Both the position numbers and the translations under genes were made by a program. This document shows positions 1-10,746 of a stretch of 11,669 nucleotides of DNA, piece by piece; the stretch's first letter is position 1; each line of letters starts with the position of its first letter. The notes beneath the pieces were generated by a model that had not been told where the DNA came from, searched no databases, and worked only from the letters and a program-made list of their open reading frames with translations. The DNA is from Clostridiales bacterium (GTDB taxonomy: Bacteria > Bacillota_E > Sulfobacillia > Sulfobacillales > JAIMBI01). The stretch covers positions 1 to 11,669 of the forward strand of contig DAHVOH010000089.1 of NCBI GenBank assembly GCA_027318915.1. The letters are read 5' to 3'.

Positions 1-348
1 CCTCGCCCGCGATGCGGCCCAAGCCAGCACCGTCTCCACCAGGGCATCGCCGACGCCCTGGCCCCGTGCCCAGGGAGCCACCCACAGGGAGAGCAGCTCC
101 GCCTCCTTGGGCGCCTCACCACCCCCATCGGCGCCGCTGACCATGCCGGCCGGAGTCCCTCTCACCTCGGCCACGGCGTTGAAGGCAACCGACTGCAGAC
201 GGTCGCGCCAGCGCCACTCGGCGTCCCCGTCCCCCTGCCACTCGCTCAACCGGGACCCGAAGGCATACGGGGCCTCCGCCAGGGCCTGCAGTCGGAGTGT
301 GCGCCAGAGCGGCCACTCTGAGGGCAAAACCGCCCGCACTCTGATCAT
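1..348 (-). CDS. GNAT-family N-acetyltransferase, partial (C-terminus outside window)
   Basis: 116 codons are visible, from the ATG at 348-346 to the window edge. An in-frame TGA lies four codons upstream, so this start is fixed, and an AGGAG sits 12 nt before it. The start MIRVRAVLPSEWPLWRTLRL is typical of GNAT proteins, where the first strand leads into the R..D/E..W.L.R.LRL helix. Residues 84-92 (ELLSLWVAP) form the acetyl-CoA-binding strand, followed by ARGQGVGDALV at 94-104, the motif A pyrophosphate loop (consensus Q/RxxGxG/A). The fold predicts acetyl transfer from acetyl-CoA to an amine, but the substrate cannot be read from the sequence. The rest of the domain lies beyond position 1. 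The gene is divergent from the riboswitch-controlled EAL gene and no functional link between them is visible. Confidence 0.85.
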   Translation of the reverse strand, partial: MIRVRAVLPSEWPLWRTLRLQALAEAPYAFGSRLSEWQGDGDAEWRWRDRLQSVAFNAVAEVRGTPAGMVSGADGGGEAPKEAELLSLWVAPWARGQGVGDALVETVLAWAASRAR

Positions 349-662
349 CGCGACGTCTCACTCCTCTCGCGGCGGCGGCAGATCCGGGCCGCCCGCCGAT
401 CCACCCCGCGGGGACGCTCCGGCCGCCCCGCACTGCGCCTCCCATTGTATCCCGTTCGCGCGCCCATCCCGGCCCCGGAGGCTTGCGGTCCGGGCAGCCG
501 CGCCGCGGGCCGGCTCCCGCGTGGTCCCTGTCGAAAGATACGGCACCGCTCGCGTTCGGACGCGGGCGGGCGAGCCCTGCGATGCGCTCTTCGGGCCGAT
601 GGGACGCCACCGACGATGGCGGCGAAGTATCCCCTGCGATCGCGCCGTTTTGTCGAAAATCG
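349..662. other. intergenic region, no gene seen
   Basis: This very G+C-rich stretch lies between the divergent GNAT and EAL transcription units. Open frames exist on both strands, but their composition is arginine/glycine/proline-rich, they lack ribosome binding sites and they resemble no family. Apart from the possible GNAT -10 box at 444-449, nothing recognisable is present. Confidence 0.6.
444..449 (-). promoter_or_regulatory. possible -10 box for the GNAT gene
   Basis: On the minus strand, TACAAT (5 of 6 to TATAAT) is preceded by GGGA. It is one of the few A/T-containing stretches in this leader, about 95 nt before the GNAT start codon. No convincing -35 box is seen 16-18 nt upstream, so this is a weak call. 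Confidence 0.3.
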
Positions 663-691
663 TTGACAGACGCCCTTCCTTGCGCTACGAA
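663..691 (+). promoter_or_regulatory. sigma-70-type promoter for the riboswitch/EAL transcript
   Basis: A perfect -35 box TTGACA (663-668) is followed, after 17 nt, by TACGAA (686-691), a partial -10 box. Transcription would start near 698, about 40 nt before the riboswitch aptamer, leaving a leader of about 195 nt before the EAL start codon. Confidence 0.6.
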
Positions 692-738
692 TGATTTGCA
701 GACGGTGAAAGTTCATAGGTGCCCGTGTCCATCCTGTT

Positions 739-820
739 CCCGGCAAAGTCGGCGAAAGTCGGCGACGCAAAGCTATCGGGCCTTCGAGGGCGTGAGCCCC
801 CATGGTAGCCAGTTGCCAGG
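739..820 (+). promoter_or_regulatory. cyclic-di-GMP-I (GEMM) riboswitch aptamer
   Basis: The core of the GEMM class I aptamer is present in order. CGGCAAA (741-747) forms the 5' side of the closing helix. GTCGGC-GAAA-GTCGGC (748-763) is a six-pair hairpin, including two G-U pairs, capped by the GAAA tetraloop known to dock in this class. Then comes the invariant ACGCAAAGC (765-773). GCTATC (772-777) pairs with GGTAGC (804-809) to make the second arm, which holds GGGCCT and a GGGC-GTGA-GCCC hairpin (788-799). TAGCCAGTTGCC (806-817) closes the aptamer, with GGC 742-744 pairing GCC 815-817 and CC 739-740 pairing GG 819-820. The sequence agrees closely with the family consensus as I remember it. 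The next gene is an EAL-domain c-di-GMP phosphodiesterase, exactly the type of gene expected under this ligand. Confidence 0.92.
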
Positions 821-866
821 ATGATAAGGGTTACGACGGTGTGACGCTTCGGGATTAGGGCTCCGG

Positions 867-893
867 GCGCCTCTGAGCAAGGAGGCGCGTTTT
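867..893 (+). terminator. riboswitch expression platform: hairpin overlapping the ribosome binding site
   Basis: GCGCCTC (867-873) pairs perfectly with GAGGCGC (882-888) around an eight-base loop, and a G and four Ts follow (889-893). The 3' arm contains most of the Shine-Dalgarno sequence AAGGAGG (879-885) of the EAL gene. The hairpin could act as a weak intrinsic terminator ending just before the start codon, as a translation-blocking stem, or as both. I could not identify a convincing competing stem with the aptamer. GAGGGCG at 786-792 could pair with CGCCTC if one base bulged, but this is speculative. Confidence 0.6.
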
Positions 894-894
894 G

Positions 895-1581
895 GTGTTG
901 ATCGCCGGGCCGGGATCCCTCAAGACGCTGACCGTGGCGCTCCAACCGATCCGTGATCTGTCGACCCGGGACGTGCTGGGCTACGAGGCGCTTCTGCGCG
1001 GCCCGCGCGGGCGTTCTGTTCCGGTGCTGGCGTGGTTTGACCAAGCCGCCCGCGAGGGATGGTTGGACGCTCTCTCGGCGCAGGCATGGGACTTGGCGTT
1101 CGAGACCGCGGCGCGCCATCTGTCTTCGGATCTGTGGCTGTTTGTGAACTGGGACCAACGTCTGCCCATTCCGAGCCACCTGCCCCGTCCCCGCACCGTC
1201 ATCGAGCTGTCCGAGCGCCGGCCCATTGAGCCGCACCAGGTGGCCGCCATTCACGGTCTGGGCGCACTGGCCGCGATGGACGACTACAGTCAGGGCGCCA
1301 CGGCCCTCAGTATTCTCGCGACCAGCCCCCTCGACATCATCAAGTTGGACCGGCAATTGACGGCCGGCGTGGCTCGGCATTCGCGGCGCCAGCGGTGGTT
1401 GACGGACTTGGTCGCGCTGATGCGGATGGTGCGTCCCGACATGCGCGTGGTGGCGGAGGGCCTGGAAAACGAAGAGGACTCGCGCGTCATCGAATCGTGC
1501 GGGGTGCACTATGGCCAAGGCTATTGGCTCGGCCGGCCGCAGGTGATGGACACCGAATTGGGCGTGGCCGGCGGCCGCTGA
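895..1581 (+). CDS. stand-alone EAL-domain cyclic-di-GMP phosphodiesterase
   Basis: A 228-residue protein consisting almost entirely of one EAL domain, with no membrane segment and no GGDEF or sensor domain. EAL enzymes hydrolyse c-di-GMP to pGpG using two metal ions. All the key positions of the family can be found: E31 in YEALLRG, N85 in FVNWD, E104 in IELSE, D129/D130 in MDDYSQG, K150 in DIIKLD, E188 in VVAEGLE, and Q208 in YGQGYWLGRP. It therefore looks catalytically competent, although the usual DDFGTG loop is changed to DDYSQG. The start is taken as GTG 895, 9 nt after GGAGG; TTG at 892 or 898 is also possible. The leader carries a c-di-GMP riboswitch, so expression should follow the level of the enzyme's own substrate. 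It converges on membrane protein B with a 25-nt gap. Confidence 0.93.
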   Translation: MLIAGPGSLKTLTVALQPIRDLSTRDVLGYEALLRGPRGRSVPVLAWFDQAAREGWLDALSAQAWDLAFETAARHLSSDLWLFVNWDQRLPIPSHLPRPRTVIELSERRPIEPHQVAAIHGLGALAAMDDYSQGATALSILATSPLDIIKLDRQLTAGVARHSRRQRWLTDLVALMRMVRPDMRVVAEGLENEEDSRVIESCGVHYGQGYWLGRPQVMDTELGVAGGR

Positions 1582-1594
1582 GGCGTCCGGCGTT

Positions 1595-1619
1595 GGTCGC
1601 CCGCCGTCAGCGGGCGGCC
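1595..1619. terminator. hairpin between convergent genes, without a T tract
   Basis: A ten-pair stem with one G-T pair (1595-1604 with 1610-1619) around the loop CGTCA. It lies between the convergent EAL and membrane-protein-B genes, and the loop holds the stop codon of the latter (TCA on the plus strand). No run of T follows on either strand, so a role as bidirectional terminator is only plausible. Confidence 0.35.
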
Positions 1620-2590
1620 AGGGGCGCCGAAGACGCCGGGTCTCCGGGGTCGCCCGCCACCGCCGGTCGCGCGCCCCGAGCTCCGACCCACAGCGGCGCC
1701 CACAGCGCGACGGCCAGCAACATCCAGACCGGGCCCGTGTTGGGATCGGTCGACACGCCGCCAAAGAGACCGCCCAGGTTCTCCCCGACCCACCACACGG
1801 CCGCAAACCACAACAGAGCGGCGAGCATCGTCCCGCGATGGTCCGGTCTCAGCACGATGCCCAGGCCCACCGCCAGCATCAGCATCACCACGACCAGATT
1901 GCCGGCCACGGGATGGAGACCCGCCATGCGCACCGCCCACGCAATCGGCGCCGTGCGGTCCGATACCGGTGTGAGGACCAGGTTGGCCCGGATCTGCTCG
2001 GCCAGGGCCCCCGGCGCCCACCAACCCGGCAGCGCCTGCAACATCGCGGCCAGGATCCACCAGCCGCCGAGCGTCTGCCGCAACCGTCTCACAAAACGCG
2101 CGGACCCAAAGCGCGACGCCGGCCACAGCAGAAGGACCGCGCCGTAGGCATACAGCACCACCGAGCCCGGTCCGTTGGTCAGAAAGCTCATGCCGGCGAA
2201 CAGCGAACCCATCCATTCGGCCAAGATCCAAACCACCAGCGCCCAGCCCAGCGACACATACAGAGCGGCACGGCCCCAGCGGCGCTCGCGCCCCAGCCAG
2301 AAGGCGCCCGCCAAGCCCACCTGAATCGCGAGCACCAGCCCATCCAGGTAACCCGCCCAATGATTTTGATAAATCCACGTCACCACGTGATTGCTGAGGA
2401 AATTGAGGTACCAAGCCGGCTGATCCCAGCCGCCCATCAGGATAATGTCCAATTGGTCCATCGGCATGTGGGGCTGTAGGGACAAGAGTCCATCCACGAG
2501 CCAGAGAAAACCCAGCCCCCACCAGAGGACGGTGCGCGTCAGAGCACCCGCCGGCGACGCGTCCTCCTGCCTGTGGGCGGCCCGCCTCAT
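1607..2590 (-). CDS. multi-pass membrane protein B of the copper/oxidase operon (paralogue of protein A)
   Basis: A 327-residue polytopic membrane protein with about eight hydrophobic segments. Landmarks: WLVDGLLSLQPHM at 30-42, AEWMGSLFAG at 124-133, GPGSVVLY at 140-147 followed by LLLWP, HPVAGN at 226-231, and ENLGGLFGGVSTDPNTG at 270-286. The same landmarks in the same order occur in the protein at 4867-5964, so the two are diverged paralogues. Within each, the E..G.LF.G..(S)...G segment occurs once per half, which suggests an internal duplication. The function is unknown to me. Proteins with this WLLDG..Q.QP / DPNTG pattern occur in other bacteria as hypothetical membrane proteins. The ATG at 2590 lies 12 nt after the ctaG stop and has only a poor ribosome binding site, so translational coupling to ctaG is likely. 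A role in oxidase assembly or copper handling is inferred from its neighbours. Confidence 0.85.
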   Translation of the reverse strand: MRRAAHRQEDASPAGALTRTVLWWGLGFLWLVDGLLSLQPHMPMDQLDIILMGGWDQPAWYLNFLSNHVVTWIYQNHWAGYLDGLVLAIQVGLAGAFWLGRERRWGRAALYVSLGWALVVWILAEWMGSLFAGMSFLTNGPGSVVLYAYGAVLLLWPASRFGSARFVRRLRQTLGGWWILAAMLQALPGWWAPGALAEQIRANLVLTPVSDRTAPIAWAVRMAGLHPVAGNLVVVMLMLAVGLGIVLRPDHRGTMLAALLWFAAVWWVGENLGGLFGGVSTDPNTGPVWMLLAVALWAPLWVGARGARPAVAGDPGDPASSAPLAAR

Positions 2591-2602
2591 CGGCTGACGA
2601 GG

Positions 2603-3481
2603 CTAGCCCGGTCGCACGGCCCGTATTTCGCCGTCGCCCACCGGAACCGGAAGCCCATCGATGCCGAGCGCTGTGCGCACGTCGCGCTGGTGTTCGCGAT
2701 CCGCCCATTGGCGGAACCACCCCAGGGCCAACCATCCGAAGGCGACATGGACCCCCACCAGGCAGAGGATGGCGCCCATTTGTTGGTCGCCCACCAGGGA
2801 CAGGCCCCAGACCCGAGGGGCGGCCCCGTAGGCGGCGGCATAGAGGGGCGACGTGTCCAGGGCCACGATGGCCAGGGGCAGAATCATCGGCAGACCGTCC
2901 AGGAACAGATACAGCAAGCGGATGCCGGGGTGCAGTCGGGGCCATTCCGGCAGCGGACTCAGGAGCGGCCACCACATGAACAGGCCCACCACCACCAGCA
3001 GCAGGTGCAGCCCCACCATGATGGGCATCGATCGCACCATCGCCGTAATCACCGGGGGCGCCACCATGAGTCCGAACACGATGTTGAACACGAGGATGGC
3101 CATCAGGGGCCGCGTCATCCACCGCCAGCCCGCCGCCACCCCCGGCAGGCGGAGAAAGCGCCGCCACATCCATTCGGGCACCCCGAAAATCAGCAGCGGC
3201 GGCACGACCAGCGCGGCCAGCATATGCTGCAGCATGTGGGCGGCGAACAGGTACCCCATGGCCAGGACCCCGACCGGGCTGCCCAAAGACAGGTACAACG
3301 CCAACAGCGCGCCCGAAAAGAACAGTGCCTGGCGGCGGGTGGGCAACACCGCGTCGGGCCACCGCTGCAAGCCCGGTCCGTAGGTGATCCACCTATAGGC
3401 CAAACCCACCAGTCCCACCGCCAAGAGCGTCGTGGGCGTGAACCAAGCCCACACCGGGATGGACGCGAGTCCCGGCTCCAT
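2603..3481 (-). CDS. ctaG: CtaG-family cytochrome c oxidase assembly protein (caa3_CtaG type)
   Basis: A 292-residue membrane protein with about seven hydrophobic helices. The family signature is clear: AHMLQHML at 81-88 (H82 and H86, likely metal or haem-site ligands), further histidines such as H159 in a transmembrane helix, and GDQQMGA at 231-237 near the C-terminus. Bacillus CtaG is needed for formation of active caa3 oxidase. It is unrelated to the Cox11-type protein that shares the name. The start chosen is ATG 3481, which has GAGG 8 nt upstream; a GTG three codons earlier (3490) is in frame but lacks a good site. It is the third gene of the operon, after the SCO-like gene (88-nt gap) and 12 nt before membrane protein B. 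With SCO it points to Cu-A/Cu-B site maturation. Confidence 0.92.
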   Translation of the reverse strand: MEPGLASIPVWAWFTPTTLLAVGLVGLAYRWITYGPGLQRWPDAVLPTRRQALFFSGALLALYLSLGSPVGVLAMGYLFAAHMLQHMLAALVVPPLLIFGVPEWMWRRFLRLPGVAAGWRWMTRPLMAILVFNIVFGLMVAPPVITAMVRSMPIMVGLHLLLVVVGLFMWWPLLSPLPEWPRLHPGIRLLYLFLDGLPMILPLAIVALDTSPLYAAAYGAAPRVWGLSLVGDQQMGAILCLVGVHVAFGWLALGWFRQWADREHQRDVRTALGIDGLPVPVGDGEIRAVRPG

Positions 3482-3541
3482 CACCGCCACCTCTCTCTTG
3501 TTTTACCATGGTGAGCCCAGGAATGCTCGGAAATCTTCCCG

Positions 3542-3569: not shown

Positions 3570-4877
3570 TCAGCGCAGGCGAATCCACAGCCGCCGTCCG
3601 GGTTCCCAAATCCACCGCGCCGCGCCGCGGCTCGAGCCGGTCACCTCAATGCGCCCGTTCCTGCTCAGCGTCACCACCGCCCCGGCCGGCACCGCGGGCG
3701 GCGCCGGCGCCATCGGGCGCCACGGGCCGCCCGCGCTGCTCCGGAGGAGACCGGAGCGCGTCAGCACGACCGCCACCCCGTCGGGGCCGGCCGCCAGCGG
3801 CTGCCGGACGGGGATGAACAGATCGTCGGGCGGCAGCACGTCGGGCGACGTCCAGACCTTGCCCCAATCGTCGGTGTAGAACGTCACCGGGCTTTCGGTG
3901 TAGCCCCACGGCAGCACCATCGCCCACGCTTGTCCGGGCGCGCCGTACGCCACCACCATGCCGCCCCGCTTGGTGACGCCGGGCGGGCTCACATTGGTCC
4001 ACACCCGGCCCCGATCCGTCGTGCGCTGCAACACCTCGTAGGCCCCCTGGGTGGTCAATCGCCAGGCGTCGGCCGCCGTCACCCGATGCACGTCCTGATT
4101 GCCGCGGGGCCAGGCCGGACCGATGCGGCCGGAGAAGGGCAGCGGCATCGGGGTCGGGGTCGACGCCGTCGGCGCCAGGGCGGTGGGAGACTGTCCCAAC
4201 AGGGTCAGCACATACGCCGCCAGCAGCTGCGCCGTGCCGTCGAAGGCGCCCGGCGTGTCGGCGGGATTGCTCACATAGCGCACGGACCCCGCCCGGCCAA
4301 TCAAATAGAACACCTGGGAATGGTTGACCATGCCGTTGCGGGGCGCGGAGACCGCCACATAATAGTCGTGCCAGACCTGCCGCAGCACGGCCAAGTTGGG
4401 GTCGGTGAGAAACTGCCAGGTGGGCAGGCCATTCATCTGCTCCGCCCGATCGAACGCCTGCACCGCCGCCTCGGAGTACACCACCGGATTGGCGACAATG
4501 GCCACCAGCTCGACGCGGGCGCGGTCGCGCGCGGGCAGATCGTTCCACATCAGCTTCAGGTCCTGGGCCTGCAGCGGGCACTGATACCAGCAGACCGGGT
4601 CCAGAAACGTCAGCACGACCACGCGCCCGCGAAACTGGCTCATCTGAACGGTCTGGCCCCTCTGGTTCTGCAGCCGGAAATTCGGCGCGCGAAATCCCGC
4701 CACCGTCGTCATGCCGTCTTCCGCCAGAGCCTGCGCGGCCGGGGCCGTCAGGTTCAGGCTGGTGGTGGGGTCCGGGGCCGGCGCGCCGAGCCACGTGCCG
4801 ATGCGAATGCCGATGACGACCATGGCCAAAACCAAGAGCCCCCACCCGCCCCACCAAGCCCACCGCTTACCCGCCAT
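3570..4877 (-). CDS. SCO1/SenC-like copper chaperone fused to an Asp-box (BNR-like) domain
   Basis: A 435-residue membrane-anchored protein. An N-terminal transmembrane helix (about 9-28) is followed by an extracytoplasmic thioredoxin-like SCO domain (about 60-225). The SCO copper ligands are present: C96 and C100 in VCWYQCP (CxxxC) and H186 in NHSQVFYLIG. SCO proteins bring copper to, or reduce, the Cu-A site of cytochrome oxidase. After a Pro/Thr-rich linker (about 230-255) comes a further 180 residues with Asp-box-like signatures, TTDRGRVWT (286-294) and YTDDWGKVWT (334-343), as in sialidase/YCF48-type beta-propeller repeats. Typical SCO proteins are about 200 residues and lack this part. 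The ATG at 4877 has GGAG 7 nt upstream and overlaps the end of membrane protein A by 11 nt, so the two are translationally coupled. Confidence 0.88.
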   Translation of the reverse strand: MAGKRWAWWGGWGLLVLAMVVIGIRIGTWLGAPAPDPTTSLNLTAPAAQALAEDGMTTVAGFRAPNFRLQNQRGQTVQMSQFRGRVVVLTFLDPVCWYQCPLQAQDLKLMWNDLPARDRARVELVAIVANPVVYSEAAVQAFDRAEQMNGLPTWQFLTDPNLAVLRQVWHDYYVAVSAPRNGMVNHSQVFYLIGRAGSVRYVSNPADTPGAFDGTAQLLAAYVLTLLGQSPTALAPTASTPTPMPLPFSGRIGPAWPRGNQDVHRVTAADAWRLTTQGAYEVLQRTTDRGRVWTNVSPPGVTKRGGMVVAYGAPGQAWAMVLPWGYTESPVTFYTDDWGKVWTSPDVLPPDDLFIPVRQPLAAGPDGVAVVLTRSGLLRSSAGGPWRPMAPAPPAVPAGAVVTLSRNGRIEVTGSSRGAARWIWEPGRRLWIRLR

Positions 4878-5964
4878 GGGACGACTCCGCCGGCGCGGGC
4901 GCCGGGGCCACGCCGTGCCCCCACACGCCCGCCAGGCGACCGTAGGCGACCACGCCTCCCAAGAGAATGGCGCCGGTGTTGGGGTCCGTCCCCATCCCCC
5001 CCAAGACGCCCAAGTCCTGTCCGAAATACCAGACGGCCAGGATGAAGCCCACCGTCGTCCAGAGGGTGGCGGGCCGGCTCGGCCGAAAGAGCCACAGGGC
5101 CAGCACCGCCAGGATGGCGGCGAGGATGGCGGCGTTCCATGCGACGGGGTGGAGGGCGAGACTGGCGTGCCACGCATACAACGGGCCGGAGAACCAGCTC
5201 GGCTGCGGCATCGTGGCCATGCTGCGCACGTATCCGGCCAAGCCCCTGACCGTCCACCAGCCGTTGGCCGGCCACGCCTCCAGCGCCGCCATCAGACTCA
5301 ACCAGGCGATCCAAAACCACCGGCCCCACCGTCGCCAGCGCGGATCCAGCCATCGCTCGGCGGGCCACAGCAGCGCGCCGGCCGCCAGAGCATACAGGAG
5401 TCCCGAGCCGGGGGACCCCACCAGAGGACCGCCCCCGCTGAAGAGACTCCCAAAAGCTTCCCCGCCCGCCCAGACGGCGAGTCCCCAGACGGCGGAGGCG
5501 ACCAGCGCCCAGCGCCGCCAGCCGGACCCGTCCCGGGCGAACAGCAGCGAGAGCCCCAGCACAAGCTGGAGATAGGCGGCGCCCACATTCCACCAGATGG
5601 GGCTCATCCCCCAGAGACGGATGCCCAAGTCCACCACCGCGCGGACAAATCCGGGCTGTCCGGACAGCAACGGGGCGAGAAATCCCCCGATGAAGCGCGT
5701 CACCATCGCCGGCTGGGCTTGAAGAAATCCGTCCAGGGTCCACAGCACCCCGAGCCACAGGACCAGCCCTTCCCGAGCCGGCACCTGCAGCCGAGCGGGG
5801 TGGAACGCCGGCGACCCACCCGCCGGTGACCCCCGCCGGAGCAGCCAGAGCCCCAGCACCACCAGCGCCAACACCAGCCCCACCAAGCCGGCGGCGTGAT
5901 AAAACAGGGCCACGGCCAGCGCCGAGGGATAATTGGGCATCACCATCGACGGCATGAGGGGCAC
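4867..5964 (-). CDS. multi-pass membrane protein A of the copper/oxidase operon (paralogue of protein B)
   Basis: A 365-residue polytopic membrane protein, first gene of the operon. The start is taken as GTG 5964, 6 nt after a good GGAGG (5975-5971); the frame is open much further upstream, but that part has no membrane-protein character. An extra N-terminal helix (about 14-42) distinguishes it from protein B. Shared landmarks: WTLDGFLQAQPAM at 75-87, GEAFGSLFSGGG at 168-179, GSPGSGLLY at 183-191 followed by ALLWP, HPVAWN at 272-277, and QDLGVLGGMGTDPNTG at 316-331. The C-terminal tail is Ala/Pro-rich and ends in SSHGG. The gene overlaps the SCO-like gene by 11 nt. I recognise no characterised homologue. 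Participation in copper supply or oxidase biogenesis is inferred from the operon only. Confidence 0.85.
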   Translation of the reverse strand: MPLMPSMVMPNYPSALAVALFYHAAGLVGLVLALVVLGLWLLRRGSPAGGSPAFHPARLQVPAREGLVLWLGVLWTLDGFLQAQPAMVTRFIGGFLAPLLSGQPGFVRAVVDLGIRLWGMSPIWWNVGAAYLQLVLGLSLLFARDGSGWRRWALVASAVWGLAVWAGGEAFGSLFSGGGPLVGSPGSGLLYALAAGALLWPAERWLDPRWRRWGRWFWIAWLSLMAALEAWPANGWWTVRGLAGYVRSMATMPQPSWFSGPLYAWHASLALHPVAWNAAILAAILAVLALWLFRPSRPATLWTTVGFILAVWYFGQDLGVLGGMGTDPNTGAILLGGVVAYGRLAGVWGHGVAPAPAPAESSHGG

Positions 5965-6228: not shown

Positions 6229-6909
6229 CTAGGGCGACGAGCGCGGCACCTCTTTGAAAAGGACGTCGGTTCGGATCCCGAGGTGCCCATAGGGCACCGC
6301 CGTCCACGTGAACGCCGTCTCTTCGGCGCAGGGATAGACCGCCGCCCAGTCCGACGGGAGCAGCACATCGCGCACCCACGCCCATTGGGCTTGCTGCAGG
6401 CGATCTAAGGTCTCCGGAGCCGCGACGCCTTCGCTCACCAGGCGACTTTCCAGCGCCGTCAGTTCAGCCGGGTAGAATCCGGCCGCCTCCCGCACCGAGA
6501 CGGTCCGCCCGTTGTCCAGGCGCTGCACGATGAACCAAACGCCCGGGTCGTCGCGGACATCCTGACTCCCAAAGCGCACGCGGCCCCCGGTGAGGTACGC
6601 GGCCACGTCGCCCAGACAGGGACTGTTTTTGGACAGCACGCGCGTGGCGGTGCGGTCGATGCGACCGTCGGGATAAAGCCGCGGCAAGGCTTGCGCCAAC
6701 GCGATGCCGCCGCGGAACAGACCGTCGCAAGCGTGGCCGTGAAACTTCACCAGGTCGGTGAATTCGATGGTTTTGGTGCGCGACGCGTAGCGCCCATGGC
6801 TCGACTCCGTGTCCCACACCGAAAAGCGCGGCAACGGAGCGTCGGCGGCCCATGCCGGCCAATACCACGGAATCGACCCGTCTCGTCCCCCCTCTTCCCC
6901 GTGTGTCAT
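6229..6909 (-). CDS. FmdE-family (formylmethanofuran dehydrogenase subunit E-like) protein
   Basis: A 226-residue soluble protein. The FmdE signature is FHGHACDGLFRG at 56-67, containing H57, H59 and C61; the usual form is HGHxCPG, so the proline is replaced by Asp here. A second family-like block is SPCLGDVAAYLTGGRVRFGS at 96-115, with C98 before the DA/DV..LTG segment. C194 lies in a third cysteine-containing segment near the C-terminus. FmdE domains bind metal through the His/Cys residues and occur far outside methanogens, where their reactions are mostly unknown; methanofuran chemistry should not be assumed. The ATG at 6909 comes one base after the dsrE-like stop codon with no separate ribosome binding site, so the pair is translationally coupled. 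The first 45 residues are poorly conserved in character and an internal start is possible. Confidence 0.8.
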   Translation of the reverse strand: MTHGEEGGRDGSIPWYWPAWAADAPLPRFSVWDTESSHGRYASRTKTIEFTDLVKFHGHACDGLFRGGIALAQALPRLYPDGRIDRTATRVLSKNSPCLGDVAAYLTGGRVRFGSQDVRDDPGVWFIVQRLDNGRTVSVREAAGFYPAELTALESRLVSEGVAAPETLDRLQQAQWAWVRDVLLPSDWAAVYPCAEETAFTWTAVPYGHLGIRTDVLFKEVPRSSP

Positions 6910-6910
6910 G

Positions 6911-7261
6911 TTAAAACGTCATCACCGTGTAGCCCTCCCGGGCATAGCGGGAGAAGGCGTCCCGAGCAAACTCGGCCTGCACGCCCATTTCCGTCGCGGC
7001 ATCCCGCAATCCCCAGTCATGCAACTGATTGGCACAGCCGCCCACCAGAATGCCGTCGCGAATCAGCTCGTCAATCAGCCGGCCCAACTCTCCGTCGCGC
7101 TCTGCCAGCAGGCGCACTCCCTGGGTGAAGAGAAACACCTCCACCGCATCCACGCCGTTTTCCACCCGCGCATCGTACATCCGCTTGGCGACATGAAGAC
7201 CCGCCCCGGCCCGAGCCGGGTTGTCCGCTCCCGACAGCACCACCACCGCGATCTTCGTCAT
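6911..7261 (-). CDS. DsrE/DsrF-like family protein
   Basis: A 116-residue protein with the DsrE-like Rossmann-type fold pattern: MTKIAVVVLSGADNPARAGA opens with a beta strand and loop, then HVAKRMYD helix, VEVFLFTQGVRLL (strand plus helix), and ILVGGCANQLHDWGL at 71-85 with a single cysteine, C76. In DsrE and TusD the cysteine in this part of the fold carries persulfide sulfur, so C76 is a plausible sulfur-carrier site, although many family members have other or unknown roles. The start ATG 7261 has an excellent site (AAGGAGGA, GGAGG ending 6 nt before the codon). The fmdE-like gene follows one base after the stop. Pairing with an FmdE-like protein suggests the two act together; proximity to the ars locus is suggestive only. 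Confidence 0.87.
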   Translation of the reverse strand: MTKIAVVVLSGADNPARAGAGLHVAKRMYDARVENGVDAVEVFLFTQGVRLLAERDGELGRLIDELIRDGILVGGCANQLHDWGLRDAATEMGVQAEFARDAFSRYAREGYTVMTF

Positions 7262-7526: not shown

Positions 7527-7946
7527 TCAGCCGCCCGCCCGCCCCTCTCGTCCCCGCGAACCGATGTGAGCCTCGCCGGGGGCACCGACGGGTTCGGTGG
7601 CGGACCACGCCGCCGTCTCGTCCCCCACCGCGCAGCGATCCTCCACGCGGTGCGTTTTCAGCCACGCGACATCCTCCGGGTCTTCGGGCAGATCGCGGAT
7701 CTGCGCGGCCACGAGGGGGGGCAGGTCGGGCCGCAGGGCATAGTACATCCAATATTTCTGCCGCCGTTCCCGAACCAGGCCCGCCTGCTTCAGCCGACGG
7801 AGGTGCTGGGAAACGGCCGGCTGGCTGACGGGCAGGCGCTCCACCATCTCGCAGACGCAGGCTTCGCGCACGTTGAGCATGGCAAGGATGCGAAGGCGGA
7901 TGGGATCCCCCAGCGCTTTGTACAGCTCGGCCATCTCTTCGTACAA
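7527..7946 (-). CDS. arsR: ArsR/SmtB-family transcriptional repressor with an As(III)-type CVC site
   Basis: A 139-residue winged-helix protein. LYKALGDPIRLRILAML (8-24) is the classic first helices. ACVCEM (29-34) places C30 and C32 in the recognition-helix region, matching the ELCVCDL As(III)-binding motif of plasmid R773-type ArsR; a third nearby cysteine of that type is absent. VSQPAVSQHLRRLKQAGLV (40-58) is the DNA-recognition helix, followed by the wing KYWMYYAL. The C-terminal 50 residues are longer than usual and include C105. The start is taken as TTG 7946, because the perfect anti-Shine-Dalgarno match GAGGTGAT lies just before it; GTG 7955 and ATG 7934 are alternatives. It is divergent from arsB and should repress the locus until arsenite or antimonite binds. 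Confidence 0.92.
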   Translation of the reverse strand: MYEEMAELYKALGDPIRLRILAMLNVREACVCEMVERLPVSQPAVSQHLRRLKQAGLVRERRQKYWMYYALRPDLPPLVAAQIRDLPEDPEDVAWLKTHRVEDRCAVGDETAAWSATEPVGAPGEAHIGSRGREGRAGG

Positions 7947-7969
7947 CCCTATCACCTCATCGTGTTTTA

Positions 7970-7999
7970 CTTATACAGATTGGTGTGATACCGTGTCAA
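7970..7999 (-). promoter_or_regulatory. arsR promoter in the arsR-arsB divergent region
   Basis: On the minus strand a perfect TTGACA (7999-7994) is followed, after 18 nt, by TATAAG (7975-7970), 5 of 6 to the -10 consensus. Transcription would begin near 7963, giving a leader of under 20 nt that carries the GAGGTGAT site. The spacer and flanks contain an imperfect ATCAC...GTGAT dyad (7951-7989) that could be the ArsR operator. I see no equally good rightward promoter for arsB. Confidence 0.7.
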
Positions 8000-8031
8000 G
8001 CGGCACCCCACACGAGGAGGATCATCGTTCC

Positions 8032-9327
8032 ATGGTCCATGTCCTGGTTCCCGTGGCCCTGTTCGTGGCCGTCCTGGCTCTGGTGATCATCCAACCGCGC
8101 GGACTGTCCATCGGCTGGCCGGCGGCGGTGGGCGGCGGGCTGGCCGTTCTGCTGGGAGTGGTGTCCTGGACCGATGTGGTGACCGTCATCGCGATCGTCT
8201 GGGACGCGACGCTCACCTTCGTGGCCGTCATCCTCATCTCCCTGGTGCTGGATCGGGTGGGCGTCTTCGAATGGGCGGCGCTCCACATGGTGCGTCTGGC
8301 CCGCGGGCGCGGGCGCGCCCTCTTCGTGTACACGCTGCTCCTCGGCGCCGCCGTGGCGGCGCTGTTCGCCAACGACGGCGCCGCGCTCATTTTGACGCCC
8401 ATCGTCTATGAACAGGTGCAGGCGCTCAATTTCCGGCGCGAAGCCGTCCTCGCCTTCGTCATGGCGGGCGGCTTCATTGCCGACGCCACCTCGCTTCCGC
8501 TCGTGGTCAGCAATCTGGTCAACATCGTCTCGGCCGACTTCTTCCACATCGGGTTTGTGAGCTACGCGGCCGACATGGTGCCGGTGGACCTGGTGGCGTT
8601 GGCCGCCAGCATTGGAGCGCTCTGGCTGTTGTTTGGGCGCCGGCTGCCGACATCGATCCCGACCACCGGGCTTAAGGCCCCCGCCGACGCCATTCGCGAT
8701 CCACGCCTGTTTCGCTGGACCTGGCCGATTCTGGGTGCCCGGCTGGCCGGCTACCTGTTGACGGAGACGGCGCACCTGCCCGTCTCGCTGGTGGCGGGCT
8801 CGGCCGCGGTGGTGCTGCTGGTGCTGGCTCGAAAGAGTCCCGCCATAGAGATTCCTCGCTTGGTCCGGGAGGCGCCCTGGAAGGTGGTCGTCTTCTCCAT
8901 AGGCATGTACGTCGTGGTGTTTGGTCTCAAGAACGCCGGCCTCACCGCGCTCCTGGCGCACTCCATCGCCTGGGCGGCGTCCCGCGGGACCCTGGCCGGC
9001 ATTCTGTACACCGGCTATCTGGCCGCCGGTCTCTCCTCGGTCATGAACAACATGCCCACCGTGATGGTCAACGCGCTGGCCATCCGCGCGGCCGGGGTGC
9101 CGCCCCATGCGCTCGCCCTGCCGCTGGCCAACGTCATCGGCAGCGACTTGGGGCCGAAAATCACGCCGATCGGCTCGCTGGCCACGCTGCTGTGGCTGCA
9201 TGTCCTGGAGCGGCGCGGCATGCGCATCGGCTGGGGCTATTACATGCGTGTCGGCTTGGTGTTGACCATCCCGGTGCTGGCGGTGACACTGGGCGCGTTG
9301 GCCGGACTGCTGGCCTGGCGCGCGTAG
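8032..9327 (+). CDS. arsB: arsenite efflux pump ArsB
   Basis: A 431-residue inner-membrane protein, close to the roughly 430 residues usual for ArsB, with about 12 hydrophobic helices. ArsB exports As(OH)3/Sb(III) using the proton gradient. Family landmarks: ALFANDGAALILTPIV at 110-125, DATSLPLVVSNLVNIVSADF at 151-170, MNNMPTVM at 338-345, and IGSDLGPKITPIGSLATLLW at 369-388. All are typical of ArsB rather than of other ion-transporter-superfamily members. The ATG at 8032 follows AGGAGG by 11 nt, a little far; the frame is open upstream, but the arsR promoter and coding region lie there, so 8032 is the sensible start. It is divergent from arsR and 69 nt before the flavoprotein gene, which is probably cotranscribed. 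Confidence 0.95.
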   Translation: MVHVLVPVALFVAVLALVIIQPRGLSIGWPAAVGGGLAVLLGVVSWTDVVTVIAIVWDATLTFVAVILISLVLDRVGVFEWAALHMVRLARGRGRALFVYTLLLGAAVAALFANDGAALILTPIVYEQVQALNFRREAVLAFVMAGGFIADATSLPLVVSNLVNIVSADFFHIGFVSYAADMVPVDLVALAASIGALWLLFGRRLPTSIPTTGLKAPADAIRDPRLFRWTWPILGARLAGYLLTETAHLPVSLVAGSAAVVLLVLARKSPAIEIPRLVREAPWKVVVFSIGMYVVVFGLKNAGLTALLAHSIAWAASRGTLAGILYTGYLAAGLSSVMNNMPTVMVNALAIRAAGVPPHALALPLANVIGSDLGPKITPIGSLATLLWLHVLERRGMRIGWGYYMRVGLVLTIPVLAVTLGALAGLLAWRA

Positions 9328-9396
9328 CGCGGCCGGCGCCGCCGGCTCGGGTCGTGGACGGCGAGCTGTGAGACGATATCGAAACGAGGTGGACAC

Positions 9397-10746
9397 ATGA
9401 CCCACATCCTCATCATCGGCGGCAGCGACGCCGGCATCAGCGCCGCGCTCCGCGCCCGGGAATGGGACTCCTCCACGGACGTCACCCTGGTGCTCCGCGA
9501 CGACTATCCCAACTTCTCCATCTGCGGCCTGCCGTATTTCCTGAGCGGCGAGGTGCCCGACTGGCATCGCCTGGCGCACCGCAGCCGCGCCGAGCTGGAG
9601 GCGGCCGGCATCACCCTGCTTGGCGGCACGACGGCGACACGCCTTGACGCCGCCGGCCATCGCGTGGAGGTGCAGGACGATGTCGGCGCCCGCACCCTCC
9701 GCTATGACCGGTTGGTCATCGCCACCGGGGCCGAACCGGTGCGGCCGCCGCTGCCCGGCCTGGATGCGCCGGGCGTCTTTCTCCTGCACCACATGGGCCA
9801 GGGGCTGGCGCTGGCGGAGTACCTGGAGCGGCGGCGGCCGGCGCGCGCCGTCGTCATAGGGGCGGGCTACATCGGCTGCGAGATGGTGGACGCCCTGTCG
9901 CGCCGGGGCCTTCAGGTGACGGTCATGGAACAGGCCCCGGCCGTGCTGCCGACGGTGGATCCGGCACTGGGGCAGATTCTTGGCCGCCGGATGGCCGAGC
10001 GCGGCGTGGAGGTGCTGTGCGGAACGCCGGTGGCCCGCATCGAGCGGCGCCATTCCCTGGTGGTGGTCACCCGGGACGGGCAAGAGCGCGAGGCCGATCT
10101 GGTGCTGGTCGCGGCCGGCGTGCGGCCCGCGACCGCGCTGGCGCGGCAGGCCGGAATGAGGCTGGGCGTTTTGGGCGCCATCCCCGTCACGCCCACCATG
10201 GCCACGGACCTGCCCGACGTGTGGGCGGCCGGCGACTGCGTCGAAACCCGGCACGCCCTGCTGAACACACCCACGTATCTGCCCCTGGGAACGACGGCTC
10301 ACAAGCAGGGACGGGTGGCCGGGGAGAACGCCGCCGGCGGGGAGCGGGTGTTCGCCGGTTCGGTGGGCACGCAGGCCGTGCTCGTGTTCGACCTCGTCGC
10401 GGCCCGCACGGGTCTCCGCGACGCGGAGGCCGCCCGGGCCGGATGGGATCCGCGGACGAGCGAGCTGACCTGTTGGGACCACAAGGTCTATTACCCGGGA
10501 GCGGAGCCGCTCGTGACGCGCCTCACCGGTGATGAGCGCACCGGCCGGCTGCTGGGGCTCCAGCTTCTCGGCCATCGGAGCGGCGAGGTGGCCAAACGGG
10601 TGGACATTGCGGCGGTGGCTCTGCAGCAGGGGCTTTCCGTCGATGCGCTCTCCGACTTGGACCTGAGCTACACGCCGCCGCTCGGCAGCCCCTGGGATCC
10701 CCTCCAAATGGCGGCCCAGGATTGGAGCGCGACCCGCCGGATGTGA
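9397..10746 (+). CDS. FAD-dependent pyridine nucleotide-disulfide oxidoreductase (CoA-disulfide reductase/NADH oxidase-like)
   Basis: A 449-residue flavoprotein of the CoA-disulfide reductase, NADH oxidase and persulfide reductase group. The FAD-binding motif is IIGGSDAGISAA (6-17). A single redox cysteine, C43, sits in FSICGLPYFLSGE, the position of the active cysteine in this group, so it is not a two-cysteine glutathione-reductase-type enzyme. The NAD(P)H-binding motif is VIGAGYIGCE (153-162), and AAGDC (277-281) is the second FAD motif. The C-terminal dimerisation domain ends with LDLSYTPPLGSPWDPLQMAA (421-440), whose Tyr contributes to the active site in CoA-disulfide reductases. The start ATG 9397 has GAGGTGG upstream. 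Being directly downstream of arsB, it probably supports arsenic resistance, for instance by low-molecular-weight thiol or persulfide reduction; that role is inferred. Confidence 0.88.
   Translation: MTHILIIGGSDAGISAALRAREWDSSTDVTLVLRDDYPNFSICGLPYFLSGEVPDWHRLAHRSRAELEAAGITLLGGTTATRLDAAGHRVEVQDDVGARTLRYDRLVIATGAEPVRPPLPGLDAPGVFLLHHMGQGLALAEYLERRRPARAVVIGAGYIGCEMVDALSRRGLQVTVMEQAPAVLPTVDPALGQILGRRMAERGVEVLCGTPVARIERRHSLVVVTRDGQEREADLVLVAAGVRPATALARQAGMRLGVLGAIPVTPTMATDLPDVWAAGDCVETRHALLNTPTYLPLGTTAHKQGRVAGENAAGGERVFAGSVGTQAVLVFDLVAARTGLRDAEAARAGWDPRTSELTCWDHKVYYPGAEPLVTRLTGDERTGRLLGLQLLGHRSGEVAKRVDIAAVALQQGLSVDALSDLDLSYTPPLGSPWDPLQMAAQDWSATRRM

Follow-up and report, generated by a model that had tools for sequence, protein, structure and literature searches.

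A c-di-GMP-I riboswitch before a stand-alone EAL gene, with a predicted OFF platform that includes a 5' leader clamp

We describe a small c-di-GMP control unit in an 11,669 nucleotide stretch of Clostridiales bacterium DNA (contig DAHVOH010000089.1; this whole stretch is called the window). A full-length c-di-GMP-I (GEMM-I) riboswitch aptamer is followed by a gene for an EAL-only protein, predicted to be a c-di-GMP phosphodiesterase, and the evidence supports that riboswitch and isolated gene form one unit. Folding of the leader suggests that binding of c-di-GMP probably turns the EAL gene OFF, most likely at the level of translation, be it by this or by a transcriptional route. The kind of arrangement is already known and this member of it is new; its main interest lies in the predicted sign together with a putative clamp formed by the 5' leader. 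The features of the unit are:

663..668, plus strand: TTGACA, a possible -35 box (sequence)
711..725, plus strand: 5' strand of the putative long-range clamp P0 (anti-sequestor), upstream of the aptamer and complementary to 864-878
730..736, plus strand: 5' strand of the putative closing helix P1a, pairing with 817-823 (sequence, folding)
732..820, plus strand: c-di-GMP-I (GEMM-I) riboswitch aptamer, RF01051 (cmscan)
817..823, plus strand: 3' strand of P1a (sequence, folding)
864..878, plus strand: 3' strand of P0, sharing bases with the 5' arm of the sequestering hairpin
867..888, plus strand: hairpin GCGCCTC/GAGGCGC over the ribosome-binding site, 867-873 with 882-888 (terminator scan)
879..885, plus strand: Shine-Dalgarno sequence AAGGAGG, its GAGG within the hairpin stem (sequence)
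895..1581, plus strand: stand-alone EAL gene, predicted c-di-GMP phosphodiesterase, GTG start, 228 amino acids

The riboswitch, its gene and their surroundings

The covariance-model search with RF01051 that the first-pass annotation had proposed gave a match at 732-820 on the plus strand, with 61.6 bits against a gathering threshold of 35 and an E-value of 2.3e-10 (cmscan). The match spans model positions 1-87 of 87 and is thus a full-length aptamer. Besides two overlapping, lower-scoring matches of the same clan, nothing else in the window matches Rfam at E <= 1. The GEMM-I aptamer which that annotation had recognised in the leader therefore stands, with its extent corrected to 732-820 for the aptamer proper; the expression platform, consisting of the hairpin 867-888 and the 5' clamp, had gone unnoticed. 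Two pairs deviate from the RF01051 model and the core is intact.

At the ligand-selectivity position the aptamer has a G (G742), located by alignment to model column 11, where equating this column with G20 of the Vibrio cholerae riboswitch Vc2 is our own mapping by alignment to the model. A G at the selectivity position is described for c-di-GMP and an A for c-AMP-GMP (PMC9481103), and the position is characterised as a selectivity factor and no hard filter (PMC9262584). The G at 742 disfavours c-GAMP, which we rejected as the likely ligand on the strength of such a factor, not a filter.

The putative closing helix P1a has seven perfect pairs (730-736/817-823). A complementary run like this is reached by 2,147 of 5,000 composition-preserving shuffles and so is not beyond chance, and in the unconstrained fold 730-736 pairs with bases of 850-858 instead of 817-823.

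The DNA of the window is GC-rich and TTGACA occurs in it as a single copy per strand. The hexamer that the first-pass annotation took for a promoter is indeed present at 663-668, followed at 17 nucleotide spacing by a -10 candidate, TACGAA (686-691). Since this candidate matches at only three of six bases and a sigma-70 promoter scan of 1-3000 found none, the promoter is only plausible, and for the latter reason the transcription start near 698 is an assumption. The EAL gene begins 74 nucleotides after the end of the aptamer. Its start codon is most likely GTG 895 rather than TTG 892, because the near-identical predicted protein P0001 starts there, and nine bases separate it from AAGGAGG.

Riboswitch and EAL gene lie as one plus-strand unit between two minus-strand reading frames, an upstream acetyltransferase-like one (1-348, named by eye and open at the window end) and a convergent one downstream (1607-2590). 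The latter and 4870-5955 (minus strand) encode paralogous predicted membrane proteins (by eye), with 35% identity over 274 aligned positions and no Pfam match. Between these paralogues there are a CtaG gene (2603-3490, minus strand) and a gene for a SCO1/AhpC-type domain with a long C-terminal part (3573-4871, minus strand). Among the protein relatives listed with an organism name the nearest is a CtaG protein (57%) from a 'Firmicutes bacterium', which makes a Bacillota origin of the window likely. Further along, at 6229-7261 (minus strand), an FmdE-domain protein adjoins a 116 amino acid protein without Pfam or NCBIfam match. An ArsR-type regulator (minus strand), an ArsB arsenite pump (plus strand, 8032-9327) and a CoA-disulfide-reductase-like flavoprotein (plus strand, 9397-10746) make up 7530-10746, an arsenic-linked cluster in which the flavoprotein is an unusual partner.

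The EAL protein matches Pfam PF00563 (EAL) with 98.1 bits over residues 10-215 of 228, and no second domain was found in it by Pfam and NCBIfam searches, which bears out the earlier description of an isolated EAL-only unit without a sensory domain. NCBIfam gave 13 partial matches, all under the cut-off and mostly to c-di-GMP phosphodiesterases. In an alignment of the protein with 12 homologues, E31-A32-L33, E104, D129, D130, K150, E188 and Q208 are invariant in all 13 sequences, and N85 and E107 are nearly so. From work on RocR-type enzymes, we take E31, N85, E104, D129, D130, K150, E188 and Q208 to be metal-binding or catalytic residues; the expected set is thus present, as had been claimed for this gene at first reading. 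The AlphaFold2 model has a pLDDT of 90.3 and its best Foldseek matches are solved EAL domains (4q6j with E 1.8e-15, 3u2e and 3n3t). Lmo0131 (4q6j) and a standalone V. cholerae EAL protein (6ifq, 6ij2) share the fold by Foldseek, and the EAL proteins of known structure have 23-24% identity to the window protein. Some proteins with an EAL fold are inactive receptors. From its sequence the window protein is predicted to be a c-di-GMP phosphodiesterase.

Expression platform and predicted sign

Directly before the start codon there is a perfect 7 bp hairpin (867-873/882-888), the 3' arm of which begins with the GAGG of the ribosome-binding site. Watson-Crick hairpins of 7 bp with a loop of 3-8 were seen in only 25 of 2,000 shuffles of 824-905. 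Upstream of the aptamer, leader bases 711-725 match 864-878 as complements at 14 of 15 positions (G-U counted) and would therefore compete for the 5' arm of this hairpin. The duplex of leader and platform was computed at -33.7 kcal/mol, a value equalled in 28 of 2,000 shuffles of both flanks.

We propose the following switch. Without ligand, leader 711-725 would clamp 864-878, extended by pairing of 727-736 with 850-861, which would keep the hairpin open and the ribosome-binding site free, the ON state. With ligand bound, the aptamer and P1a would hold 730-736 and weaken the clamp, so that hairpin 867-888 could cover the ribosome-binding site or end transcription, the OFF state.

In the free RNA 698-905 the clamp has a probability of 0.99, is prolonged by 727-736 with 850-861, and leaves the hairpin at 0.001. 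When the aptamer and P1a are imposed on the same RNA (six of the P1a pairs were used as constraint), the hairpin rises to 0.87 and the clamp falls to 0.12. A rise in hairpin probability of at least 0.8 was seen in four of 300 sequences with both flanks shuffled and in one of 300 with only the 5' leader shuffled. We predict the sign OFF because of this shift towards the hairpin and its rarity in shuffles. The clamp itself is a rare feature: just six of 300 shuffles open the free hairpin, and about as many (four) show the switch, so the OFF direction largely follows from having a clamp. A shift of at least 0.5 in the opposite direction occurred in four of 300 shuffles.

For robustness we compared 20 combinations, that is, four parameter sets with five settings of transcript ends and temperature each. 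In 19 of the 20 settings, imposing aptamer and P1a improved the standing of the hairpin against the clamp by 0.3 to 5.5 kcal/mol, and in one the change was 0.0; in all 20 the hairpin was favoured in the imposed state. The clamp was favoured in the free RNA in 12 of 20 settings, among them none of the five with Andronescu parameters and none of the four reaching base 1000, where the hairpin was preferred even when free. At length 920 the hairpin probability in the free RNA went up to 0.34.

The predicted switch depends on P1a in these models: with the aptamer core alone imposed on 698-905 the hairpin stays at 0.01, and the clamp is still ahead in four of five Turner 2004 settings. The 5' end of the transcript also matters. 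Starting at 711, the hairpin has a probability of 0.13 with the aptamer imposed; starting at 718 or later, it is dominant in both states. The energetic price of the imposed aptamer is 6.5 kcal/mol at length 826 and rises to 11.0 kcal/mol at length 905, and switching would therefore need a decision during transcription. When folding is followed step by step, P1a disappears from the free RNA at length 868, and the ligand would have to bind earlier. The OFF prediction is accordingly a moderate one: it depends on P1a, on where the transcript begins and ends, on the choice of energy parameters and on kinetics.

Parts of the same folding data are compatible with an ON switch, in which the bound aptamer would join the two P0 strands and free the ribosome-binding site, phosphodiesterase would go up and c-di-GMP down. 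P0 encloses the aptamer and the secondary structures of both are compatible. By minimum free energy, the clamp state and the hairpin state come out equal (-72.0 each) once aptamer and P1a are imposed, and with the aptamer imposed the clamp prevails at lengths 872-884 (probability 0.88-0.98), before the 3' arm of the hairpin is complete and the hairpin can form. Riboswitches also typically feed back on the pathway of their own ligand (PMC6366702). Against this, P0 is favoured over the hairpin in none of the 20 settings once aptamer and P1a are imposed, and the platforms of relatives are read as OFF, which makes an ON switch unlikely in our view. The first-pass annotation had suggested a simple homeostat and had left the sign unsettled by the sequence. 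The sign is still a prediction, and the folding of the platform now points to OFF. A homeostat needs an ON switch and is therefore disfavoured; we rejected it as the favoured reading.

An OFF switch could also act on transcription, with hairpin 867-888 and the following GTTTTGG as an intrinsic terminator. A terminator scan of 1-3000 returned six terminator-like sites, with 1.2 expected, and this hairpin was among them, scored with eight pairs of which six are G-C. Terminator-like hairpins follow the aptamer in relatives as well (genomes G508, G510 and G505, see below). The T run has just four bases and leads into the start codon, and the ribosome-binding site lies within the hairpin at normal spacing, which directly fits translational control. 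Taken by itself, this transcriptional sub-case of the OFF reading seems somewhat unlikely to us, and we retain OFF control of translation as the preferred route.

Relatives and distribution of the pairing

Two protein homologues, P0002 (72% identity) and P0003 (61%), are closer than any of the genome matches. Among viral contigs no relatives were found. A scan of genome contigs with the EAL protein gave three distant EAL loci (29-33% identity), and no RF01051 match was found in the stretches around them. In the phylum of genome G001 (that of locus L003, Anoxynatronum buryatiense) RF01051 occurs in 122 of 149 genomes, and an EAL search of 398 genomes of this phylum pointed to genome G370 and its class. 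This class comprises 154 genomes, with RF01051 in 137 and EAL in at least 101. RNA-family searches covered 15 of the 30 EAL loci retrieved from the 398-genome search and 20 of the 27 new EAL loci of the class, and gave no match at any of these.

The closest EAL genes in the class, among the matches listed, are one in G486 (52% identity) and two in G485 (49-50%). Whole-genome searches placed no RF01051 match near any of the three, where for the G486 gene about 200 nucleotides lie upstream before the contig ends; RF01051 occurs once in G485 (contig C5) and twice in G486 (C260 and C85). We thus rejected conservation of the riboswitch-EAL pairing. When EAL and riboswitch positions were compared by eye across the 154 genomes, a riboswitch just upstream of an EAL gene was seen, among the matches listed, only in G508 (C50) and G510 (C79), so the riboswitch/EAL-only pairing is rare in this class among those matches.

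We also looked from the riboswitch side, at 60 RF01051 matches in 37 of the 154 genomes, 57 of these matches being above the cut-off. Within 1.5 kb downstream, where the contig allowed (at locus L136 it ends about 95 nucleotides after the aptamer), four have an EAL domain and one has a broken EAL gene. The four are two identical EAL-only proteins of 281 amino acids (G508 and G510) and two longer proteins (G505 and G510).

Some further observations concern these loci. In the broken case (L147, G505:C100) a 61 amino acid fragment in one frame comes after the riboswitch, with EAL-like sequence beyond, and intact relatives of this gene are found in G508 and G510. At G521:C1:1658158-1658964 a riboswitch lies about 60 nucleotides after an EAL match on the same strand. 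The position equated with Vc2 G20 is A in 17 of the 60 loci (L130-L189, 37 genomes), G in 40, T in one, C in one and unreadable in one. Variants that bind c-AMP-GMP typically have A at this position (PMC9481103), and with 17 such loci the class merits attention for possible c-GAMP signalling.

Like the window, G508 and G510 have a riboswitch before a stand-alone EAL gene with a predicted OFF sign; they differ in having a terminator-like platform and an EAL protein of another clade, with about 40% identity. A tree built from 47 EAL rows, 44 of them different, places the window protein in a nine-row group (support 100/99) that includes G485 and G486. The EAL protein behind the riboswitch in G508/G510 falls into another group (100/97), beside paralogues from the same genomes without a riboswitch match. 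Because the two riboswitch-linked EAL proteins sit in separate groups, the pairing probably arose twice or was lost often.

In G508 and G510 an 11 bp terminator-like hairpin follows the aptamer, and in the nascent RNA the 5' arm of this hairpin is taken up by the 3' strand of the aptamer itself (CGGGTTGCC with GGCGACCCG). At equilibrium the hairpin has a probability of 0.97-0.98 without the aptamer and 0.98-0.99 with it, and the antiterminator appears only in the nascent fold. The OFF reading of these two is kinetic, since the hairpin wins at equilibrium in either state; for the same reason we did not accept equilibrium folding as proof. In the broken G505 copy, nascent and equilibrium folds both show the antiterminator (hairpin 0.00-0.01 free, 0.98-0.99 with the aptamer). 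The T runs after the hairpins of G508/G510 and G505 are weak. On these models we read the layouts of G508/G510 and G505 as the usual OFF layout.

The distribution bears on whether the riboswitch acts on the EAL gene at all. The leader could be decayed or a chance product, or the protein an inactive c-di-GMP receptor, as might be suspected from the lack of a riboswitch at the closest EAL homologues with examined DNA, from the two deviating aptamer pairs and from the thermodynamic cost of the modelled switching. A score of 61.6 bits with an intact core, a sequestered ribosome-binding site and a matching leader that are each rare in shuffles, and the presence of the expected catalytic residues argue the other way, and we regard a riboswitch without meaningful action as improbable.

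Known systems and meaning of the sign

Many of the genes associated with GEMM riboswitches have to do with making or degrading c-di-GMP or with its signalling, and the pairing of riboswitch and degrader as such is therefore not new (PMC7266159). Vc2, of the same aptamer family, acts on translation as an OFF switch, and P1 is its decisive switching element (PMC9262584). In the window, unlike in Vc2, the opposing strand is the 5' leader upstream of the aptamer. Vc2 is, to our knowledge, not located before a c-di-GMP phosphodiesterase gene. Cd1 of Clostridioides difficile (flgB operon) belongs to the same family too and is an OFF switch (PMC6366702; PMC9262584); unlike the predicted switch of the window, it is transcriptional and controls flagellar genes, and it is described as having no detected P1 helix (PMC9262584). 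At raised c-di-GMP in C. difficile, one GGDEF-EAL phosphodiesterase gene goes down 5.1-fold, without a riboswitch link in the excerpted text of the source, and tandem-domain genes as a group tended upward (PMC6200980). Among the titles and abstracts listed by our literature searches, we found none on a c-di-GMP-I riboswitch before an EAL-only gene.

In the window, sensor and degrader make up one compact unit that has no sensory domain. Which of two opposite behaviours results depends on the sign of the switch: ON would give homeostasis, OFF commitment and memory. With the predicted OFF sign, c-di-GMP at high levels would reduce its own breakdown. Such a double-negative and thus self-reinforcing loop would favour two stable states and not homeostasis. 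OFF is a concrete, testable prediction with named strands, and two different platforms point the same way. Tentatively, and with less confidence than in the OFF sign itself, we suggest that the unit may be a one-gene bistable c-di-GMP memory, built here with a leader clamp and separately with a terminator in a related lineage, so that self-reinforcing wiring of this kind may have been selected at least twice.
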